The notes under the pieces: model-generated
The model's database searches: none
What the model was told of the DNA's origin: nothing
Seen by the model: the letters and a program-made list of their open reading frames with translations, nothing else
Assembly: GCF_001586775.1 (NCBI RefSeq)
Contig: NZ_LQXS01000003.1
Coordinates: 1-64,000 of the forward strand
Source: Sphingobacterium populi
Lineage (GTDB): Bacteria; Bacteroidota; Bacteroidia; Sphingobacteriales; Sphingobacteriaceae
Length of the DNA: 64,000 nucleotides
Direction: 5' to 3'
Shown: piece by piece, positions 38,850 through 51,609 of the stretch
Position numbering within the stretch: the first letter of the stretch is position 1
Layout of the letters: the number at the start of each line of letters is the position of its first letter
Translations under genes and position numbers: made by a program

Positions 38850-39881
38850 TTATTCCACTAACGGATTTTCTTGCATATATTTCTCCCAAGCCCATGCTGA
38901 TGACATCATTTCCTCGATACCCAGCTCCGCTTTCCAACCCAACTTTTCAGTAGATTTGTTAACATCGCCCCATACCTGTACAATGTCGCCATCTCTTCGT
39001 GGGCCAATCTCGTAATTCAGTTTTTGTCCGGATGCTTTTTCAAACGCTTCAATGGCTTGCAATACCGAATAGCCGATTCCGGTACCAATATTAAATACAT
39101 CGTATCTTCCGGCTGGATTTTTATTTTCTAACAAGCGAATAGCTGCGACATGTGCTTTTGCTAAATCTACAACGTGGATATAATCACGTACGCAAGATCC
39201 ATCAGGAGTATCATAATCGCCACCAAAAACCGTTAGCTTTTCCCTTTTGCCAATCGCCGTTTGTGTGATGAATGGGAGAAGATTTTGTGGAACGCCAAGC
39301 GGTAGCTCACCAATAAGTGCCGATGCGTGCGCGCCAACCGGATTAAAGTACCGTAAGGATATGATTTGATAATTGTCGTGTGCCTGTGCAGTCTCTTGTA
39401 AGATTTCTTCGGCGATCTGCTTCGTATTTCCATAAGGCGATTCGGCCGCTTTTACTGGCGCCGATTCCGAAACAGGCAATTCGTCTGGCTGTCCATATAC
39501 CGTGCAGCTGGACGAAAATACAAAATTGACCGGAGCACCTTGATAAGCATTCAGCAGATTGATCAAGGAGAAAAAATTGTTGTGGTAATATTTTAAAGGC
39601 TTCACTACCGATTCGCCAACTGCTTTGGAAGCGGCAAAATGGATGACACCCGATATGTCGGGGTTGTTATGCACAAAACTTTTTACGGCAGATTCGTCGC
39701 ATAAATCAAATTGGTGAAACTCTGGTCGGTAATTGATGATTTTCTCAATCTGATCCAAAATCCGAATGCTTGAATTCGATAGGTTGTCAACAATAATGGG
39801 AGTGTAGCCAGCTTGGTACAATTCTACTACGGTATGTGAACCAATGAACCCAGTGCCGCCTGTTACTAAAATTTTACGCAT
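38850..39881 (-). CDS. galE: UDP-glucose 4-epimerase
   Basis: A 343-residue short-chain dehydrogenase fold enzyme interconverting UDP-glucose and UDP-galactose. The start at 39881 gives [16 protein letters not shown], the NAD-binding loop; the open frame extends 33 codons further but this would be inside the upstream gene. The active-site Ser/Thr region FSSSCTVYG and the Tyr-Lys pair in [12 protein letters not shown] are present, as is the C-terminal [12 protein letters not shown]. The gene overlaps the decarboxylase gene by 8 bp. UDP-galactose from it could feed the galactosyl transfer proposed for the GT6/GT11 pair. Confidence 0.95.
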
Positions 39882-40990: not shown

Positions 40991-42001
40991 ATGGACATAG
41001 ATTTTGTGATCACCTGGGTCGATATGAACGACCCAATCTGGCAAGAAAGCTTTGCCAAACATTCAGGAAAGATCAACAATGCGAAGAATGAGGTTTCGGA
41101 AGCGCGTTTTCGAGACCATGGACTTTTAAAATATTGGTTTCGCGGCGTCGAAAAATTTGCTCCATGGGTACGTAAAATTCATTTTGTGACCTGCGGACAA
41201 AAGCCAGATTGGCTCGATGCCAATCATCCTAAGCTGAACCTTGTGCATCACGAAGATTATATTCCGCAACAGTTTCTGCCATTATTCAATTCGAGCGTTT
41301 TAGAGGTGCATCTACATCGCATCCCTGATCTCGCAGAGCAATTTGTGTATTTTAACGACGATTTTTTCATTATCAACAATTTAAAGCCTAATCGCTTCTT
41401 TACTGAAAACGGACTTCCGCAGGATATTGCCGCTTTCCGTATGAATATGGGTATGTCTTTGTGGAGCAAGTGTTTGAAAAATAATATCCGACTGATCAAT
41501 CAGCGCTTTGACAAGCCATCGGTGATGAAGCGCGATCACGAGAAATGGTACAATCCGATCTATGGTAGCAAAGCAAGATTGACCTATCTTTTATCTTGGT
41601 ACCACAAATTCATTACGCTGCGCACGCCGCACAATGCGCAACCCTATACGAAAACAACTTTCAACGAGGTTTGGAATTACGCAGAAGCAGAATTGATGGA
41701 AATGTCTAAACATAAATTTCGTTCTCCTGACGACTTCACGCAAGAGCTTTTCAGAACTTGGCAGATCTGCCAAAGTAACTTCGAAGCATACAATACGTAC
41801 CAAGATACCAAAATGTTTCCCTTATTGTTCCGCGCCAAAAAAGCGATCAAGGCTATTCGAGAGCAAGCTTACTCCTTGGTATGTATCAATGACAATGAGC
41901 ATATGCCCAACTTCGATCAGACGATGATGGAAATCGAAAAATCATTCCAAAGTATTCTACCGCAGCCGTCGCAGTTTGAGCTGGCTGACCGTTTATCATA
42001 A
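40991..42001 (+). CDS. Stealth family sugar-phosphate transferase
   Basis: A 336-residue protein of the Stealth family, enzymes that transfer hexose-1-phosphate and make phosphodiester-linked capsules. Conserved region 1 (DFVITWVDMNDPIW, residues 3-16), region 2 (RFRDHGLLKYWFRGVEKFAPW at about 36-56, given by position, through VTCGQKPDWL and the FVYFNDDFFI motif) and region 3 with the TPHNAQPY stretch are all visible. It opens the plus-strand transferases of the central glycan block; its end overlaps the extended frame of the next GT but real overlap is absent (17 bp gap). Confidence 0.92.
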   Translation: MDIDFVITWVDMNDPIWQESFAKHSGKINNAKNEVSEARFRDHGLLKYWFRGVEKFAPWVRKIHFVTCGQKPDWLDANHPKLNLVHHEDYIPQQFLPLFNSSVLEVHLHRIPDLAEQFVYFNDDFFIINNLKPNRFFTENGLPQDIAAFRMNMGMSLWSKCLKNNIRLINQRFDKPSVMKRDHEKWYNPIYGSKARLTYLLSWYHKFITLRTPHNAQPYTKTTFNEVWNYAEAELMEMSKHKFRSPDDFTQELFRTWQICQSNFEAYNTYQDTKMFPLLFRAKKAIKAIREQAYSLVCINDNEHMPNFDQTMMEIEKSFQSILPQPSQFELADRLS

Positions 42002-45067: not shown

Positions 45068-45987
45068 ATGAAGATTGTAATAAAATTCATCTCTGATAAA
45101 ATTTGGTTTCCCATCAGGAATAGTATTGTGAGGCGTAGGCATGCAAAAGTAGCAAAGTTTTGGAAGCAAGAAATCAAAAAATATCTCGAAAAGGAAGATG
45201 CTGATCTAGTCAATTTAATACCTTTAAAACGGTTTGATAAACCGATTCTTTGGCAATATTGGAATGAAGATCTACCCTACGAAGATTTGCCACCTATTGT
45301 TCAACGGTGTTTTGATTCTGTTGACAAATATGCTACAGAGCACGAAGTTATAAGATTACATGATGGCAATGTCGCAGAATACGTTACGCTTCCAAATTTT
45401 ATTTGGAAACACAATGGAGAATGCAAATTTCCAGTAGTTTTTTTTCGGATTTATTGCGTTTAGCTTTGTTGCATACCTATGGGGGAGTATGGCTGGATGC
45501 CACTGTTTTGCTAACTAAGCCGCTCACAAAAGATTACATCAATCTGGATCATTTCGTCTTTCAGCGTGATCCCGAAGAATCTGACAAAGCGTTTTGGGAG
45601 GGACCTCATACGGCCTATTGGAGTTGGAATCCAGGTTATCGCGTCAAGATGCTGAACAGCATCATCTTTGCAAAAAAAGATAGTGTAATGATCCAAACCA
45701 TGCTTTCTTTAATGTTGCATTATTGGCAAACACAAAATAAGATTATTGATTACTTCTTTTTTCAGATCCTATACGATGAGTTAATCAATGGGAAAATGAA
45801 CCACGTAAAACCTCCTATTGTGTCTGATATTTTACCGCATATCTTGCGGGTGCTGGTTTATGGAGATTCATACCCTATTTCCACTAAAGAGCTTTTTAAT
45901 AAAGTTGGAATGCACAAACTTACTTACATCGACCCGGAGAAGATAGCGAGGTTGGATAAGATTTTAACGGATTCCAGAAATTTTTAA
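45068..45987 (+). pseudogene. Frameshifted Caps_synth-type (GT32-like) glycosyltransferase
   Basis: The first frame (45068-45463) gives PILWQYWNEDLPYEDLPP and ends soon after CKFPVVF; the second frame (from about 45446 to 45987) continues with SDLLRLALLHTYGGVWLDATV, the DXD-containing motif. Joined, they make about 306 residues, the length of the paralogue at 42805. The break is in eight T residues (45438-45445). One more T, two fewer, or a -1 slip would restore the frame, and the zero-frame reading T TTT TTT is a classical slippery heptamer. Without correction the enzyme lacks its catalytic half. Confidence 0.82.
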
Positions 45988-46043: not shown

Positions 46044-46913
46044 ATGTCACCAGTCTTTTCGATTATAATTCCTTGTTACAATCAAGCCGCTTTTTTGGAA
46101 GATGCGATACAATCATTAATATATCAAGCTTTAGAAAGCTGGGAGTGTCTCATTATCGATGATGGGTCGCCAGATGATACAGCTAGAATTGCTCAAAAAT
46201 GGGTTGAAAGAGATAGTAGAATCAAACTTTTCAGAAAGGAAAATGGCGGGTTAAGTAGCGCACGTAATTTAGGATTGAAATATGCTGTTGGAAAGTACAT
46301 CCAATTTTTAGATTGTGATGATATCCTCAAACCAGAAAAGCTTGAGTTTGCTTATACTGAGCATAAACAAGGCATGCAATTAGTCGTTTCAAATTTCGAA
46401 CTATTGAAAAATCAAATAGTACAAAAAGTTAAACATAATCTCGGACAGCAGTACTTGTCATATGACAGCATTTTGGTTGAATGGGATGACACTTTTAACA
46501 TACCTATTCATTGTGCAACATTTAGTCGGGATATCATTGAAAATCTAAAATTCGACGAGAACGTGGGTGCTGGTGAGGATTGGATGTTTTGGCTTCAAGT
46601 ATTTAAACGATCTCCGAGATCGAAATATATTGACAAATTTTTGGTCTACTATAGAATACATTCTAGTAGCATCACAGCAGATATGAATTTGATGGTTCAA
46701 CAAAAACTTGCGACAGCTTTAATTATCTATAATTCACTTGACGCGCATTACAGAGAAATCTTTTTTAAACGATTCGCTTTAGAAGCTTTGAATCGTAGAG
46801 AAACTCTGTATGAATCATATAGAAAAAACGATAGATCAATACGGAAGAAGATTAAAAATACGTTTAGAGGTTTTTTTAGGCCAAGGCTTAAGATTGAAAA
46901 TTGGAATAGATGA
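46044..46913 (+). CDS. Glycosyltransferase family 2
   Basis: A 289-residue GT2 enzyme. FSIIIPCYNQAAFLEDA opens the fold, IIDDGSPDDT lies around 37-46, QFLDCDDIL around 92-100 is the metal-binding motif and GAGEDWMFWLQ about 175-185 holds the catalytic Asp. It is 56 bp after the broken Caps_synth-type gene and followed by a 245-bp stretch holding a small ORF and a large hairpin. Donor and acceptor unknown. Confidence 0.9.
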   Translation: MSPVFSIIIPCYNQAAFLEDAIQSLIYQALESWECLIIDDGSPDDTARIAQKWVERDSRIKLFRKENGGLSSARNLGLKYAVGKYIQFLDCDDILKPEKLEFAYTEHKQGMQLVVSNFELLKNQIVQKVKHNLGQQYLSYDSILVEWDDTFNIPIHCATFSRDIIENLKFDENVGAGEDWMFWLQVFKRSPRSKYIDKFLVYYRIHSSSITADMNLMVQQKLATALIIYNSLDAHYREIFFKRFALEALNRRETLYESYRKNDRSIRKKIKNTFRGFFRPRLKIENWNR

Positions 46914-47104: not shown

Positions 47105-47126
47105 CAAGTGAATAATAGCAAAAAAG
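47081..47126. repeat. Perfect 21-bp inverted repeat with 4-nt loop
   Basis: Arms 47081-47101 and 47106-47126 are exactly complementary around TAGC. The inner part of the first arm is GCTATTATTCACTT; the outer part is CTTTTTT on the left and AAAAAAG on the right. It ends 32 bp before the GT6 start. A terminator would need T after the second arm, which instead is A-rich, so a terminator role on either strand is unlikely. It may form a stable RNA hairpin in the GT6 leader. Confidence 0.9.
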
Positions 47127-47158: not shown

Positions 47159-47980
47159 ATGAAAATAGGAATTCTATATATATGTACGGGGAAGTATGTT
47201 AGCTTTTGGGATGGATTTTATGAATCCTCGCAAAAGTATTTCATGGTTGATCCCGATTTGGAAAAGCATTATTTTGTTTTTACCGATTCACAGGACATCA
47301 AGGCCAGTCCCTTTATCCACACTTATTTTAAAACTTCCGAAGGTTTTCCTGCGGATTCGATTGGTAGGTTCGATATGTTTCTATCGATAGAAGAAGATTT
47401 GAAATCTATGGATTTTGTATTTTTCTTTAATTCCAATATGCTCTTTTTAGATCATGTTGGTCGCGAAATATTGCCTTTGGATAATCAGTCGGGTCTTACG
47501 GGAACATTACATCCAGGTTACTACAATGTATCTAAAGAAAAGTTTCCTTACGAGCGAGACCCAAGGTCCACAGCCTATATTCCGAACATTGAAGGTGTAA
47601 AATATCATTATTTCATGGGTGGGCTAAATGGCGGTCGGACGACAAATTTTATGACGTTATGTAGAGATTGTAGCGCCAATATCAAGTTAGATGAGAAAAA
47701 TAATATCATTGCATGTTTTCACGATGAGTCACATATTAATGCCTATTTTCTTCAAAAGGACGTTTTGATAATGCCCTCCAGTTATGGCTTTCCAGAAGGT
47801 CTAGAATTCCCTTTCGCTGTAAAAATCTTAATACGAGATAAGGTGAAACACTACGGTGAAGATTTCCGTAAGGAATACGCTAATCCATTTTTACTACCTT
47901 CTCCTTTCAAACGAAAAGGCCTGTGGGGCAGATTTGTTTCAAGTCTTCAAAAAAATCACCAAAAACTCTTCAATAAATGA
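47159..47980 (+). CDS. Family GT6 glycosyltransferase (blood-group A/B-like), NXN type
   Basis: A 273-residue retaining alpha-1,3-galactosyl/GalNAc-transferase homologue, without the membrane anchor of animal enzymes. Start 47159 (MKIGILYICTGKY) is preferred to 47108, which lies within the hairpin. Matches to human ABO transferase include KHYFVFTD, LDHVGREIL, GTLHPGYY, YERDPRSTAYIP and HDESHINAYF (188-192 for HDESH). The metal-binding DXD is NSN at 91-93, as in bacterial metal-independent GT6 (NXN). The donor-selecting loop reads MGG (153-155) where A has LGG and B has MGA. The stop overlaps the fucosyltransferase start (ATGA). Confidence 0.93.
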   Translation: MKIGILYICTGKYVSFWDGFYESSQKYFMVDPDLEKHYFVFTDSQDIKASPFIHTYFKTSEGFPADSIGRFDMFLSIEEDLKSMDFVFFFNSNMLFLDHVGREILPLDNQSGLTGTLHPGYYNVSKEKFPYERDPRSTAYIPNIEGVKYHYFMGGLNGGRTTNFMTLCRDCSANIKLDEKNNIIACFHDESHINAYFLQKDVLIMPSSYGFPEGLEFPFAVKILIRDKVKHYGEDFRKEYANPFLLPSPFKRKGLWGRFVSSLQKNHQKLFNK

Positions 47981-48837
47981 TTGCGGTAAAATTGCAAGGA
48001 GGATTGGGCAATCAGCTGTTTCAGTATGCTACGGCATATGCGCAAATGCCTAATGTATATATAGATTTCGATTTTTTAGCATCACAGGAGCCCACATCCG
48101 ACACGTTTACTCAAAGATCGTTTGAGCTTAAACTGTTTCCAAAAATAAAGTTCAAGGAGCTCGAACGATCAGATAGAAAGTTTTTCTTATCACGAGGTTT
48201 TTTTCATAAAATTAGTAGAAAGCTACGGGAGGCAGTTATTGTGAGGCAAGAAGGTAATGAATTTGTGCACATTCCAGATGCGAGGCATATATACTTAGAT
48301 GGTTTTTTTCAGTCGGAAAAATATTTCCTCAATGATAGGCAGAAGCTTCTGGAGATCTATCAGTTTCCTGAACTGGATGCGATAAATCAGAATTTAAAAA
48401 AACAGATCCTGGACGATGGTTTTCATAGCGGATCGATACATATTCGGCGAGGCGATTATATGAAACCTCATATTGCGAATTACCACGGCTTGCTACCACA
48501 GGATTATTATCAAAAAGCCTTAGATATTTTACACGCAAAAGTCCCAAATTTACGGCTATATATTTTTTCTGACGACGTTTCGTTTGCCCAAACTCAATTT
48601 AAGAGTTTTAGCAATGCAGTTATCGTTGAAGGAAATGATCATGAAGCGTGGAAAGACATGGCACTGATGTCGTGCTGTACACATCATATCATTGCCAATA
48701 GCTCTTTTAGTTGGTGGGGAGCTTGGCTATCTACGCAAGAAGGAGGAATCAATATTGCGCCAAAAGAGTGGTTCAATGCGCAAGTTGTAGACTTTGATAT
48801 CGATCATATAGTTCCTCAAAATTGGATTAAAGTTTAA
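47977..48837 (+). CDS. Alpha-1,2-fucosyltransferase (GT11)
   Basis: A 286-residue GT11 enzyme that would transfer fucose from GDP-fucose to O2 of galactose, making the H-type structure. The signature motifs are intact: GGLGNQLFQY at 8-17, HIRRGDY at 155-161 (GDP binding), FSDDVSFA, and IIANSSFSWWGAWLS near the C-terminus. Length is typical of bacterial FucT2 (WbwK, FutC type). Its ATG overlaps the GT6 stop by 4 bp, so the two are translationally coupled. GDP-fucose genes (gmd, fcl) are not in this window. Confidence 0.95.
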   Translation: MIAVKLQGGLGNQLFQYATAYAQMPNVYIDFDFLASQEPTSDTFTQRSFELKLFPKIKFKELERSDRKFFLSRGFFHKISRKLREAVIVRQEGNEFVHIPDARHIYLDGFFQSEKYFLNDRQKLLEIYQFPELDAINQNLKKQILDDGFHSGSIHIRRGDYMKPHIANYHGLLPQDYYQKALDILHAKVPNLRLYIFSDDVSFAQTQFKSFSNAVIVEGNDHEAWKDMALMSCCTHHIIANSSFSWWGAWLSTQEGGINIAPKEWFNAQVVDFDIDHIVPQNWIKV

Positions 48838-48846
48838 GCAGATAGA

Positions 48847-49674
48847 ATGCCCAAAATAAGTTTACTGATATCGAATTTTAACAACGGTCAATATTTTAAG
48901 GATTGCTTCAAGAGCTTGGTATCTCAGACTGAGGAAGACTGGGAAGCGATCATAATCGACGATTGCTCTACGGATGATTCAATTAGCCAAATCGAAGTGT
49001 GTATTGGAGTCGACGCTCGTTTTAGATTCTACAAGAACGAGCGAAATATGGGTTACCAACGAAGCACAATAAGAGCAATTGAATTATCGGAAGCGCCGAT
49101 ATTAGCTAGGTTGGATCCAGACGACGCACTCCGTCCCACTGCGTTGGAGAAGACATTGCAAGTCCATGCCGAAAATGAAAGTGTTGGTTTGGTGTACAGT
49201 AATTTCACCTGGTGTGATGCCAATTTGGTTTCGATTCGGGATCATCAAGCAGTACAGATCGATACGCCGTACGAAGAAGCATATTATAATTTCAAAGGCG
49301 AAATCTCTCATTTTGCCGCCTTCAAGAAAATTTTTTATAAACAAACCTCAGGCATAGATCCTTTTATCAAGCGGGCAGAAGATAAAGATCTTTACATGAA
49401 ATTATGTGAAGTTGCTCCTGTTAAACATATCAACGAATCTTTGTATTTGTACCGAATACACGAAATGGGTATGTCTACAAATGTGAATGTGGACCGTGCT
49501 TTTTACTGGCATTGGGTGGCGCTGGTAAAAATGTCTGAAAGAACGGGTACCAATTTAGAAGATTTATTTTTAGCTCATTTCACCCGAAAAGATCTAGTAA
49601 AACGTGTTAAAAAATCGCGATGGGCTAAATTAGGACATTGTTTAGGGCTTTTTAAGACATACAAAGACCTTTAG
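48847..49674 (+). CDS. Glycosyltransferase family 2
   Basis: A 275-residue GT2 protein starting 9 bp after the fucosyltransferase stop. KISLLISNFNNGQYF, IIDDCSTDDS near residue 37 and ILARLDPDDALRP near 82-94 (metal-binding DPDD) are present, as is IKRAEDKDLYMKL with the catalytic Asp around 175-187. It probably adds another sugar of the same repeat. The basic C-terminus (KRVKKSRWAK) may contact the membrane. Confidence 0.9.
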   Translation: MPKISLLISNFNNGQYFKDCFKSLVSQTEEDWEAIIIDDCSTDDSISQIEVCIGVDARFRFYKNERNMGYQRSTIRAIELSEAPILARLDPDDALRPTALEKTLQVHAENESVGLVYSNFTWCDANLVSIRDHQAVQIDTPYEEAYYNFKGEISHFAAFKKIFYKQTSGIDPFIKRAEDKDLYMKLCEVAPVKHINESLYLYRIHEMGMSTNVNVDRAFYWHWVALVKMSERTGTNLEDLFLAHFTRKDLVKRVKKSRWAKLGHCLGLFKTYKDL

Positions 49675-49752: not shown

Positions 49753-51609
49753 ATGCCATTAGTTACAGTTTTTATTACAGCATATAATAGCGCACGGTAT
49801 ATTGATCAGGCTATACAAAGCGTTTTGTGCCAAACGATGCAAGACCTCGAAGTGATTGTCGTCGATGACGGATCTACTGACAATACCCAAGCAGTTCTTT
49901 CCGAAATTAATGATTCGCGGCTTCGGGTACTCACCAATACTACAAACCAAGGGATTGTATATAGTAGAAATTTGGCATTGACGGAAGCGCGAGGAGATTT
50001 TTTGGCAGTACTAGATAGCGACGATTTAGCGCTTCCCGACCGATTGCAAAGACAGTTGAATGCTTTTAAAGATCGGGACAATTTAGCCCTGTTGGGAGGT
50101 CGTGCGTATGTTATCGACGATCTGGGTAATTTGCGAGGAGAAATTCCTCATAGTCCATCAGGTTCAGATCGGAATAAAGCTGCTCTATTTTTTGAAAATC
50201 CATTTGTACACTCCAGTGTCATGATGCGGATGTCGATCTTTCGCGAAGTTGGCGGTTATCCCGTTTTGAAGTATCCAGTTGTAGAAGATCTTGCCCTATA
50301 CATTGAAATTGCAAAAAAGTATGAGGTCGATAATCTTGATGAATTTATTTGCCAATATCGCAGGCATGATAGTAATATCACGAAGACTGGCTTGTTGAAG
50401 GTCTTGTCTATGATGCACCACGTAAAGCAGGATCAACTTATCCATTTGGGCATGCAGGGGACGGAGGATGAATCTGAGATGCTGATAAACTATTATCAAC
50501 CTAATACTTTTGATGTTCAGGAATATTTGGGATTCTTGTCAAAACTCATTTTACACAATCGTGAATACAAGACGTATAACCCAACTTATTATGATAAAGC
50601 AATTCACCAAATATGGTATGATGTCGTAATGAACAAATCGCGACATAAGGCCCTATCTCTGCTTTTTAAGTTGCCTTATAACCGAAGGAGTTATTATTCC
50701 TTTTCCCAATTGCGTAAAGCATTCAAACGATCAGTGCTGCCAACAGCCATAAATAAAGACAAAGTAGTGAAAATAATGGGCAACCTTGGCGATCAAATGT
50801 TTCAATATGTTTTTCTGCTAGCGCTTAAGCAGCAAGGACATACAGTAAAAGCTGACCTTGACAATTTGATGATTAACTCAGCGCAAAATCCATGTGTGTT
50901 GGAGCATGTTTTTTCCATCAGACCAGAATACATTACTGATGAGAAGCGCAAACTTTTTCTTAAACAGGAAGGTGAAAGTATTTACTGGAAAATGAAAAGA
51001 CAAATACTCGGTACTAGGAAAGCTTTTAAAATCGACCAGCCCCCATTTTCTTTTCATGCTTACTACCTGACCTATCCCTCTGCGGCATATTATTCAGGAT
51101 ATTGGCAGCATCTGGACTACATGAAGTTTGTAAAAGATGAGGTTAAAAACCTCTTTAAGTTTCCCGTGTTGAAAGAAGAGCACCATCAAAATATTGCTCA
51201 AATTATCTCGAAAAGCGAAAGTATTGCTGTGTATGTCAATCGCAAGAACATAGATCCACACTTGGCTGATGTTTGTGACCTAAATTATTACCTTAGGAGT
51301 ATTTCTTACATCGAGAAATATGTTGAAAATCCTGTCTTTTATTTTTTCTCTGATGACATTTCTTGGTGCAAGGAACATTTTTCATATTTGGAAGCTCACT
51401 TTTTTGAGCTTAATCAAGGCAATGATAGCTATGTTGATATGCAGTTGATGAGTTTGTGTAATCACCAAATCATCGCTAACAATACGCTTAGCTGGTGGGC
51501 AGCTTGGTTGAATACTTATCTTAGTAAAGTCGTTTTGGCGCCTAAAAATTGGGCAAATGATGCTGGTGTAAATACCTCTGGTTTAACCAAATTTTTTGTT
51601 ACCATATAA
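49753..51609 (+). CDS. Fusion of GT2 glycosyltransferase and GT11-like domain
   Basis: A 618-residue two-domain protein. Residues 1-260 are a complete GT2 domain (VTVFITAYNSARYIDQAI, VVDDGSTDNT, AVLDSDDLALP and the PVVEDLALYIEI catalytic region). After a linker of about 75 residues a GT11-like domain starts near 337 (GNLGDQMFQY in place of GGLGNQLFQY) and ends with IIANNTLSWWAAWLN. The HXRRGDY motif of active fucosyltransferases is replaced around 493-499 by YVNRKNI, retaining one Arg only, so GDP-fucose use is doubtful. The gene ends the plus-strand block, 5 bp from the convergent response regulator. Confidence 0.9.
   Translation: MPLVTVFITAYNSARYIDQAIQSVLCQTMQDLEVIVVDDGSTDNTQAVLSEINDSRLRVLTNTTNQGIVYSRNLALTEARGDFLAVLDSDDLALPDRLQRQLNAFKDRDNLALLGGRAYVIDDLGNLRGEIPHSPSGSDRNKAALFFENPFVHSSVMMRMSIFREVGGYPVLKYPVVEDLALYIEIAKKYEVDNLDEFICQYRRHDSNITKTGLLKVLSMMHHVKQDQLIHLGMQGTEDESEMLINYYQPNTFDVQEYLGFLSKLILHNREYKTYNPTYYDKAIHQIWYDVVMNKSRHKALSLLFKLPYNRRSYYSFSQLRKAFKRSVLPTAINKDKVVKIMGNLGDQMFQYVFLLALKQQGHTVKADLDNLMINSAQNPCVLEHVFSIRPEYITDEKRKLFLKQEGESIYWKMKRQILGTRKAFKIDQPPFSFHAYYLTYPSAAYYSGYWQHLDYMKFVKDEVKNLFKFPVLKEEHHQNIAQIISKSESIAVYVNRKNIDPHLADVCDLNYYLRSISYIEKYVENPVFYFFSDDISWCKEHFSYLEAHFFELNQGNDSYVDMQLMSLCNHQIIANNTLSWWAAWLNTYLSKVVLAPKNWANDAGVNTSGLTKFFVTI

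Follow-up and report, generated by a model that had tools for sequence, protein, structure and literature searches.

Paired GT6 and GT11 genes in Sphingobacterium populi as a candidate two-step module for a blood-group-like surface branch

The window, meaning the whole stretch of 64,000 nucleotides of Sphingobacterium populi DNA that was analysed, carries a GT6 glycosyltransferase gene overlapping a GT11 fucosyltransferase gene, and we consider it moderately probable that the two form an H-then-B/A-like module in which GT11 acts before GT6. Such a module would be a two-enzyme side branch of a surface polysaccharide. GT11 would attach fucose, probably in alpha-1,2 linkage, to a galactose of the repeat unit as this is built up on its lipid carrier, giving an H-like disaccharide, and GT6, working free of metal, would then add a UDP-sugar in alpha-1,3 linkage onto the same galactose, after which the finished unit would be flipped out and then polymerised. 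The chances that the product would be a B-like trisaccharide (Gal added) are about even, while an A-like product (GalNAc) is possible at lower odds and any other product appears unlikely. The module looks real, functional and of a known kind; this variant of it belongs to a clade for which we found no report of the activity of any member in the literature searched. Features of the window that bear on this interpretation are collected in Table 1.

Table 1. Window features at and around the GT6-GT11 pair (locus numbers beginning with L denote GT6 loci from other genomes)
Feature	Coordinates	Strand	Evidence
galE, UDP-glucose 4-epimerase (start codon inferred)	38850..39881	-	TIGR01179, 394.4 vs 262.3 bits on 38853-39866
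GT2 glycosyltransferase upstream of GT6-GT11	46044..46913	+	PF00535; 49% and 44% identity in L017 and L019
GT6 glycosyltransferase, 273 aa	47159..47980	+	PF03414, NF041524, model vs BoGT6a, residues
ATGA overlap of GT6 stop and GT11 start, 4 bp	47977..47980	+	4 bp overlap also in L017, L018, L019
GT11 fucosyltransferase, 286 aa, HIRRGDY intact	47977..48837	+	PF01531, conserved columns, model
GT2 glycosyltransferase, third of GT6-GT11-GT2 trio	48847..49674	+	PF00535; 54-56% identity to L017, L018, L019 counterparts
GT2-GT11 fusion, VYVNRKN replacing HIRRGDY	49753..51609	+	Pfam domains; GT11 alignment

The GT6 gene starts at the ATG at 47159 and its stop codon ends at 47980. The mechanical open reading frame opens 51 bases before this ATG, at a GTG at 47108, and residue 1 of the Bacteroides ovatus enzyme BoGT6a aligns with the ATG. 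The product matched PF03414 (E 3.6e-35, 121.7 bits vs a Pfam cut-off of 25) and NF041524 (292.4 bits vs an NCBIfam cut-off of 250), and the ABO-type motifs that a sequence-only reading of the window had pointed out were all located in it, with GTLHPGYY at residues 115-122, YERDPRSTAYIP at 131-142 and HDESH at 188-192, as were the motif NSN at 91-93, which bears out the NXN type claimed there, and the tripeptide MGG at 153-155. By sequence, the nearest solved proteins are BoGT6a (E 2.9e-61) and then the human ABO enzymes (E 2.7e-30). An AlphaFold2 model of the protein (pLDDT 91.6) superposed on BoGT6a (4ayj) with a Z of 34.6, 1.3 A over 231 residues and 46% identity, and on the ABO synthases with a Z of about 29; the fold is GT-A of the GT6 type. 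All six catalytic and donor residues of BoGT6a are matched in the alignment, as N95, N97, R73, D191, E192 and K231 correspond to N91, N93, R70, D189, E190 and K228 of the window protein, and the NXN motif suggests an enzyme independent of metal. The two tryptophans by which ABO- and BoGT6a-type enzymes were recognised, W66 and W189 in BoGT6a, are F63 and F187 here, and with phenylalanine at both positions the enzyme may have a different acceptor or closed state, which counts against the two-step module. The human counterparts of W66 and W189 are W181 and W300.

For the GT11 gene, the earlier description of intact fucosyltransferase motifs was upheld. PF01531 matched with E 1.5e-35 (123.3 bits vs a Pfam cut-off of 23.9), and in HIRRGDY at residues 155-161, a motif of the HxRRxD type, the residues H155, R157, R158, G159, D160 and Y161 vary little or not at all across 47 aligned GT11 proteins. 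An NCBIfam search at a threshold of E 0.001 gave no match to this protein, and a PDB sequence search gave no matching solved structure. The best Foldseek matches of its model (pLDDT 95.5) were the fucosyltransferases NodZ and POFUT1 (E 2e-7), with the heptosyltransferase WaaC close in rank and FUT8 lower in the ranking than the first two. The linkage made by GT11 is probably alpha-1,2. Two points here weigh against the two-step module, namely that the TM of the best matches was only 0.46-0.47 and that the GT11 family also includes the alpha-1,3-fucosyltransferase HhFT2, according to the accessible part of PMC4202792.

The short overlap proposed from the window was found as an ATGA shared by the two genes, and it would permit translational coupling of GT6 and GT11. 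Three further Sphingobacterium loci (L017, L018 and L019) have both the overlap and the GT2 gene that follows, and their proteins share 57-63% (GT6), 51-52% (GT11) and 54-56% (GT2) identity with those of the window, and because these elements recur we regard the arrangement in the window as more than chance. The GT2 gene upstream of the pair likely has its counterpart upstream in L017 and L019, judged by identity. The genome as a whole has a single GT6 match. Its GT11 matches number two, one in the pair and the other in the C-terminal part of the GT2-GT11 protein. As VYVNRKN stands at the position of HIRRGDY in that protein, its GT11 part is probably inactive or changed, and with its motif broken it was ruled out as an equal candidate for the partner of GT6.

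Genes for sugars that such a module would need can be traced in the same genome (G000; 3.56 Mb in 49 contigs). Two gmd genes lie above the cut-off (559.5 bits vs 415), and the gmd at C3:104090 has a gene resembling GDP-L-fucose synthase (fcl-like) directly upstream, at C3:103030-103980, whose protein scored 474.6 bits, slightly below the NCBIfam cut-off of 500. These two genes are on the same contig as the pair, 55 kb downstream, in another large polysaccharide region that also encodes Wza-, Wzc- and Wzx-like proteins (recognised by eye). The look-up of gmd and fcl that the sequence-only reading had proposed found gmd and an fcl-like gene, and the lack of a GDP-fucose route, which it had named as a refutation, is ruled out. 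From its family match, galE can be the source of UDP-Gal. The GalE residue aligned to human Cys307 is valine. The two-step module is favoured because gmd, the fcl-like gene and galE may supply its sugars; it is disfavoured by the location of the GDP-fucose genes in the other polysaccharide region and by the fcl-like protein scoring under the cut-off.

Bacterial GT6 genes commonly have a GT11 neighbour. Named genomes were scanned and yielded 114 relatives, and the best 80 were retained for their similarity to an alignment with the window protein at its head. Left out were L076, which has no open GT6 frame, and L012-L016, which were taken as copies of L019, L017, L018, L090 and L081 on account of matching sequences, gaps and places; the final bacterial sample comprised 79 loci plus the window, 80 in total, including the near-copies L028/L031, L026/L033/L034/L035 and L038/L042/L050. 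GT11 genes in the loci were called by our own iterated profile at E 1e-5 instead of the Pfam cut-off, in flanks of up to 8 kb that were often shortened by contig ends. In this sample (best 80 of 114), GT11 lay within 8 kb of GT6 in 68/80 loci, within 1.5 kb in 62/80 and within 300 bp in 43/80. This adjacency search had been suggested along with the original claim of coupling, and the 62/80 figure makes that claim stronger than it was from the window alone. As a control, flanks of 1.5 kb were taken around Caps_synth (PF05704) genes of the same phylum, and GT11 was present in 0/25 loci; these came from 17 genomes, and of the four loci from the window's genome two are the halves of a single broken gene.

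The same contrast was seen at the level of genomes, with GT11 in 39/44 GT6 genomes (hand-picked from the 80 loci that are the best 80 of 114) vs 42/395 genomes of the phylum (Fisher p 1.3e-27). The five of these 44 genomes searched in which a GT11 match was absent were four Paenibacillus genomes and Bacteroides reticulotermitis, and in the last of these (L045) our own profile found a GT11-like frame near GT6 with E 3e-28. The Paenibacillus loci L038, L042, L050 and L056 have GT6 in genomes without a GT11 match. At L056, gmd-like and fcl-like genes are nearby, and because of these genes and the missing GT11 match another fucosyltransferase family may serve there. GT6 itself is rare in the phylum, being found in 3/395 genomes, the window's own counted. 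Of 149 relatives searched, four have it, which are the window's genome and three of the same genus, the genes of these three being those of L017, L018 and L019.

On the GT6 tree, the arrangement of the partner gene (downstream, upstream, on the opposite strand or none) switches at least 18 times, and pair vs no pair switches 14 times. The association has therefore been formed, lost or reshuffled repeatedly. GT6 and GT11 distances are correlated over 61 loci (Mantel r 0.48, with 0/2000 shuffles as high), a value that is not corrected for species kinship. In two Chitinophagaceae loci (L054 3041-6819 and L062 7938-11714), GT6, GT11, fcl-like and gmd-like genes adjoin one another.

Some capsule loci reduce this setting to a few genes. 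In the Prevotella-type locus L034, the cluster has the order Wza-like, Wzc-like (both by eye), EpsG polymerase, GT6, GT11, GT2 and initiating sugar transferase (PF02397), with one GT2 and one initiator in all and unrelated-looking genes on both flanks; L026 has the same gene order by likeness. With one initiator, one GT2, GT11 and GT6, there are few possible acceptors for the fucose and for the GT6 sugar, and a repeat of four sugars is predicted from this gene content. GT6 is fused to a Wzx flippase (PF03414 + PF13440, 670-671 aa) in both L026 (7995-10007) and L034 (7995-10010), while the GT6 frames of 675 aa in L033 (5392-7419) and L035 (4381-6408) were judged to be fusions solely from their length and the start of their sequence. 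In L039, L052, L069 and L092, GT6 and GT11 are separated by a flippase-like gene, with Pfam support for L092. Given the fusion and these neighbours, GT6 fits a late step, the last before export. On a Nomurabacteria contig (L027 8001-9584), GT6 has about 300 extra residues without a Pfam match.

The pairing extends to viral contigs, for which the loci L097-L176 are the best 80 of 323 relatives and are not dereplicated. Among these best 80 of 323, GT11 was in the flank of 62/80 loci, within 300 bp in 35, and gmd-like and fcl-like genes were both present in 14/80, with one of them in 15 more, so that some viral contigs may hold a nearly self-contained fucose-plus-GT6 set. The 86 viral GT6 proteins of the same loci (best 80 of 323) have DXD in 84 and NXN in 2; all 86 keep the tryptophan equivalent to W189, and their tripeptides are AGG in 38, QGC in 20, AAA in 17 and others in 11. 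Other GT6 fusions occur on viral contigs, GT2-GT6 and FkbM methyltransferase-GT6 (L101 5725-7716; L097 4739-5998). If the GT6-GT11 pair is usual both in bacteria and on viral contigs, possible makers of such epitopes can be predicted from genome sequence alone, and in a minimal locus with one GT2, GT11 and GT6 a single polysaccharide structure could test the prediction.

These data bear on the possibility that GT6 and GT11 are neighbours with no shared substrate, with GT6 adding alpha-Gal to an unfucosylated galactose (a linear-B-like product, as made by vertebrate alpha3GT), GT11 fucosylating another sugar, be it in that polysaccharide or in a different one, and the adjacency reflecting the clustering of polysaccharide genes. 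The region around the pair is indeed rich in other glycosyltransferases (Pfam), published work ties the two tryptophans lost from the window GT6 to the acceptor site, and 18/80 loci (best 80 of 114) are without GT11 within 1.5 kb, some owing to a contig end. However, Caps_synth, another polysaccharide family, had no GT11 at that distance in any control locus, genomes of the phylum with any GT11 are few, the pairing has been repeatedly rearranged yet kept, and L034 has a single GT2 besides the pair. We regard independent substrates as unlikely. The two-step module is favoured because the pairing is commoner than in the Caps_synth control and in the phylum genomes, and because it was made more than once; the 18 loci just mentioned and the four Paenibacillus genomes without GT11 count against it.

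The replaced tryptophans turned out to mark a group of enzymes. In the columns of W66 and W189, both tryptophans are present in 53/80 bacterial GT6 proteins and both are lost in 25/80, with one mixed case and one gap (best 80 of 114). The 25 double-loss proteins, the window GT6 included, are set apart from the rest by a branch of SH-aLRT 97 in a quick tree for which both columns and the tripeptide were masked, and they form a Bacteroidota clade. As the double loss is confined to this one clade, it represents a single historical event and not repeated covariation. The clade has the tripeptides MGG (14), MGS (10) and HGG (1), never AGG, and in 24/25 of its loci a GT11 gene lies at most 1.5 kb downstream of GT6 on the same strand, the sequence of the 25th (L084) ending 1.5 kb downstream (best 80 of 114 throughout). 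The GT11 partners of the clade, placed on their own tree, do not group as a single clade in its best version, with 5 label changes of which 2 are forced by starred branches. The window GT11 belongs to a group of five with full support, together with three Sphingobacterium proteins and one partner of a GT6 that keeps both tryptophans, nearest by path Paraflavisolibacter. These trees suggest that members of the clade acquired different GT11 genes, which would favour a functional need for GT11.

The sequence-only reading had taken MGG as a mixture of the B-type Met and the A-type Gly. The tripeptide is where it was said to be, but an unusual A/B chimera is ruled out, since MGG is the commonest of the bacterial tripeptides (MGG 30, AGG 22, MGS 10 and others 18 in 80 GT6; best 80 of 114). 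In the ABO enzymes this position sets the donor, human residues 266-268 being LGG (A) or MGA (B), as stated in the portion of PMC6351642 that was available; the five tripeptides tested, as given in that portion, do not include MetGlyGly. In the human enzyme, Met at position 266 clashes with GalNAc, and by analogy Gal looks likelier than GalNAc as the donor. In BoGT6a, W66 contacts the UDP phosphates and the backbone of W189 contacts O6 of GalNAc (accessible text of PMC3961637), and in view of these contacts the clade probably closes its active site by another way. If the clade does work without both tryptophans, it would offer another GT6 solution to site closure and acceptor choice.

A branch that depends on fucose and is neither A nor B would also fit this clade, which would then make a new epitope by using a different donor sugar or a different fucosylated acceptor; such a reading shares ground with the products other than A-like and B-like allowed for above. 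It is consistent with the coherence of a well-supported clade (SH-aLRT 97) without both tryptophans, with MGG or MGS in 24/25 and GT11 downstream in 24/25 (best 80 of 114), and with donor choice in ABO being set at the tripeptide (PMC6351642, as far as accessible). The remaining donor and catalytic residues are kept, however, the backbone of the model follows BoGT6a at 1.3 A, and MGG also occurs in 15/53 enzymes with both tryptophans (best 80 of 114), and we judge such an outcome quite unlikely. A wider proposal is tentative and, in our estimate, doubtful: that the window GT6 belongs to an undescribed Bacteroidota class with both tryptophans exchanged, locked to a downstream GT11, that would complete a non-canonical, fucose-dependent branch other than A/B as the final reaction ahead of export, a reaction that in Prevotella-type capsules would be part of the flippase itself through the GT6-Wzx fusion. 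The literature searched, which left most subscription journals outside its coverage, contained no GT6 class without both tryptophans and no GT-Wzx fusion.

The surroundings of the pair are those of a large polysaccharide region, in which a Stealth-type protein (PF11380 + PF17101) is encoded at 40991-42001. No flippase or polymerase gene was found beside the pair in the window, which is a further point against the two-step module. A Caps_synth (PF05704) gene at 45068-45987 is split into two overlapping frames at a run of eight T (45438-45445), which may be a real frameshift, a sequencing error or phase variation. This split gene and the VYVNRKN of the GT2-GT11 fusion might suggest a decaying locus with the pair out of use, but the GT6 and GT11 frames are open with intact motifs and the trio with its overlap is kept in three Sphingobacterium loci at 51-63% identity, making decay very improbable.

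The proposed module, GT11 followed by GT6, can be set beside several known systems. BoGT6a, described in the accessible part of PMC3961637 as a metal-independent GT6 making an A-antigen-like product on 2'-fucosyl-lactose, is like the window GT6 in family, NXN motif, fold, catalytic Asp/Glu/Lys and about 45-46% identity; it differs in having W66, W189 and AGG where the window protein has F63, F187 and MGG, and the alignment shows two residues inserted immediately before the tripeptide. Helicobacter mustelae BgtA, by its description in the available text of PMC4202792 an A-type enzyme acting on Fucalpha1-2Gal, is likewise a bacterial member of the GT6 family. In E. coli O86, as the same text describes it, WbwK (GT11) makes H and WbnI (GT6) completes B, giving a blood group B O antigen; by that description it resembles the window in having GT6 and GT11 in one organism and differs in host and in cluster, and distant DNA searches with the L046 and L072 GT6 genes gave no match to its WbnI. 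Human FUT1/FUT2 (GT11) and ABO (GT6) are the same pair of families with the same expected order of action. The human ABO enzyme has DXD, depends on metal and keeps Trp at both positions, whereas the window GT6 has NSN and Phe at both, and at 266-268 it carries LGG (A) or MGA (B), following the accessible part of PMC6351642, where the window GT6 carries MGG.
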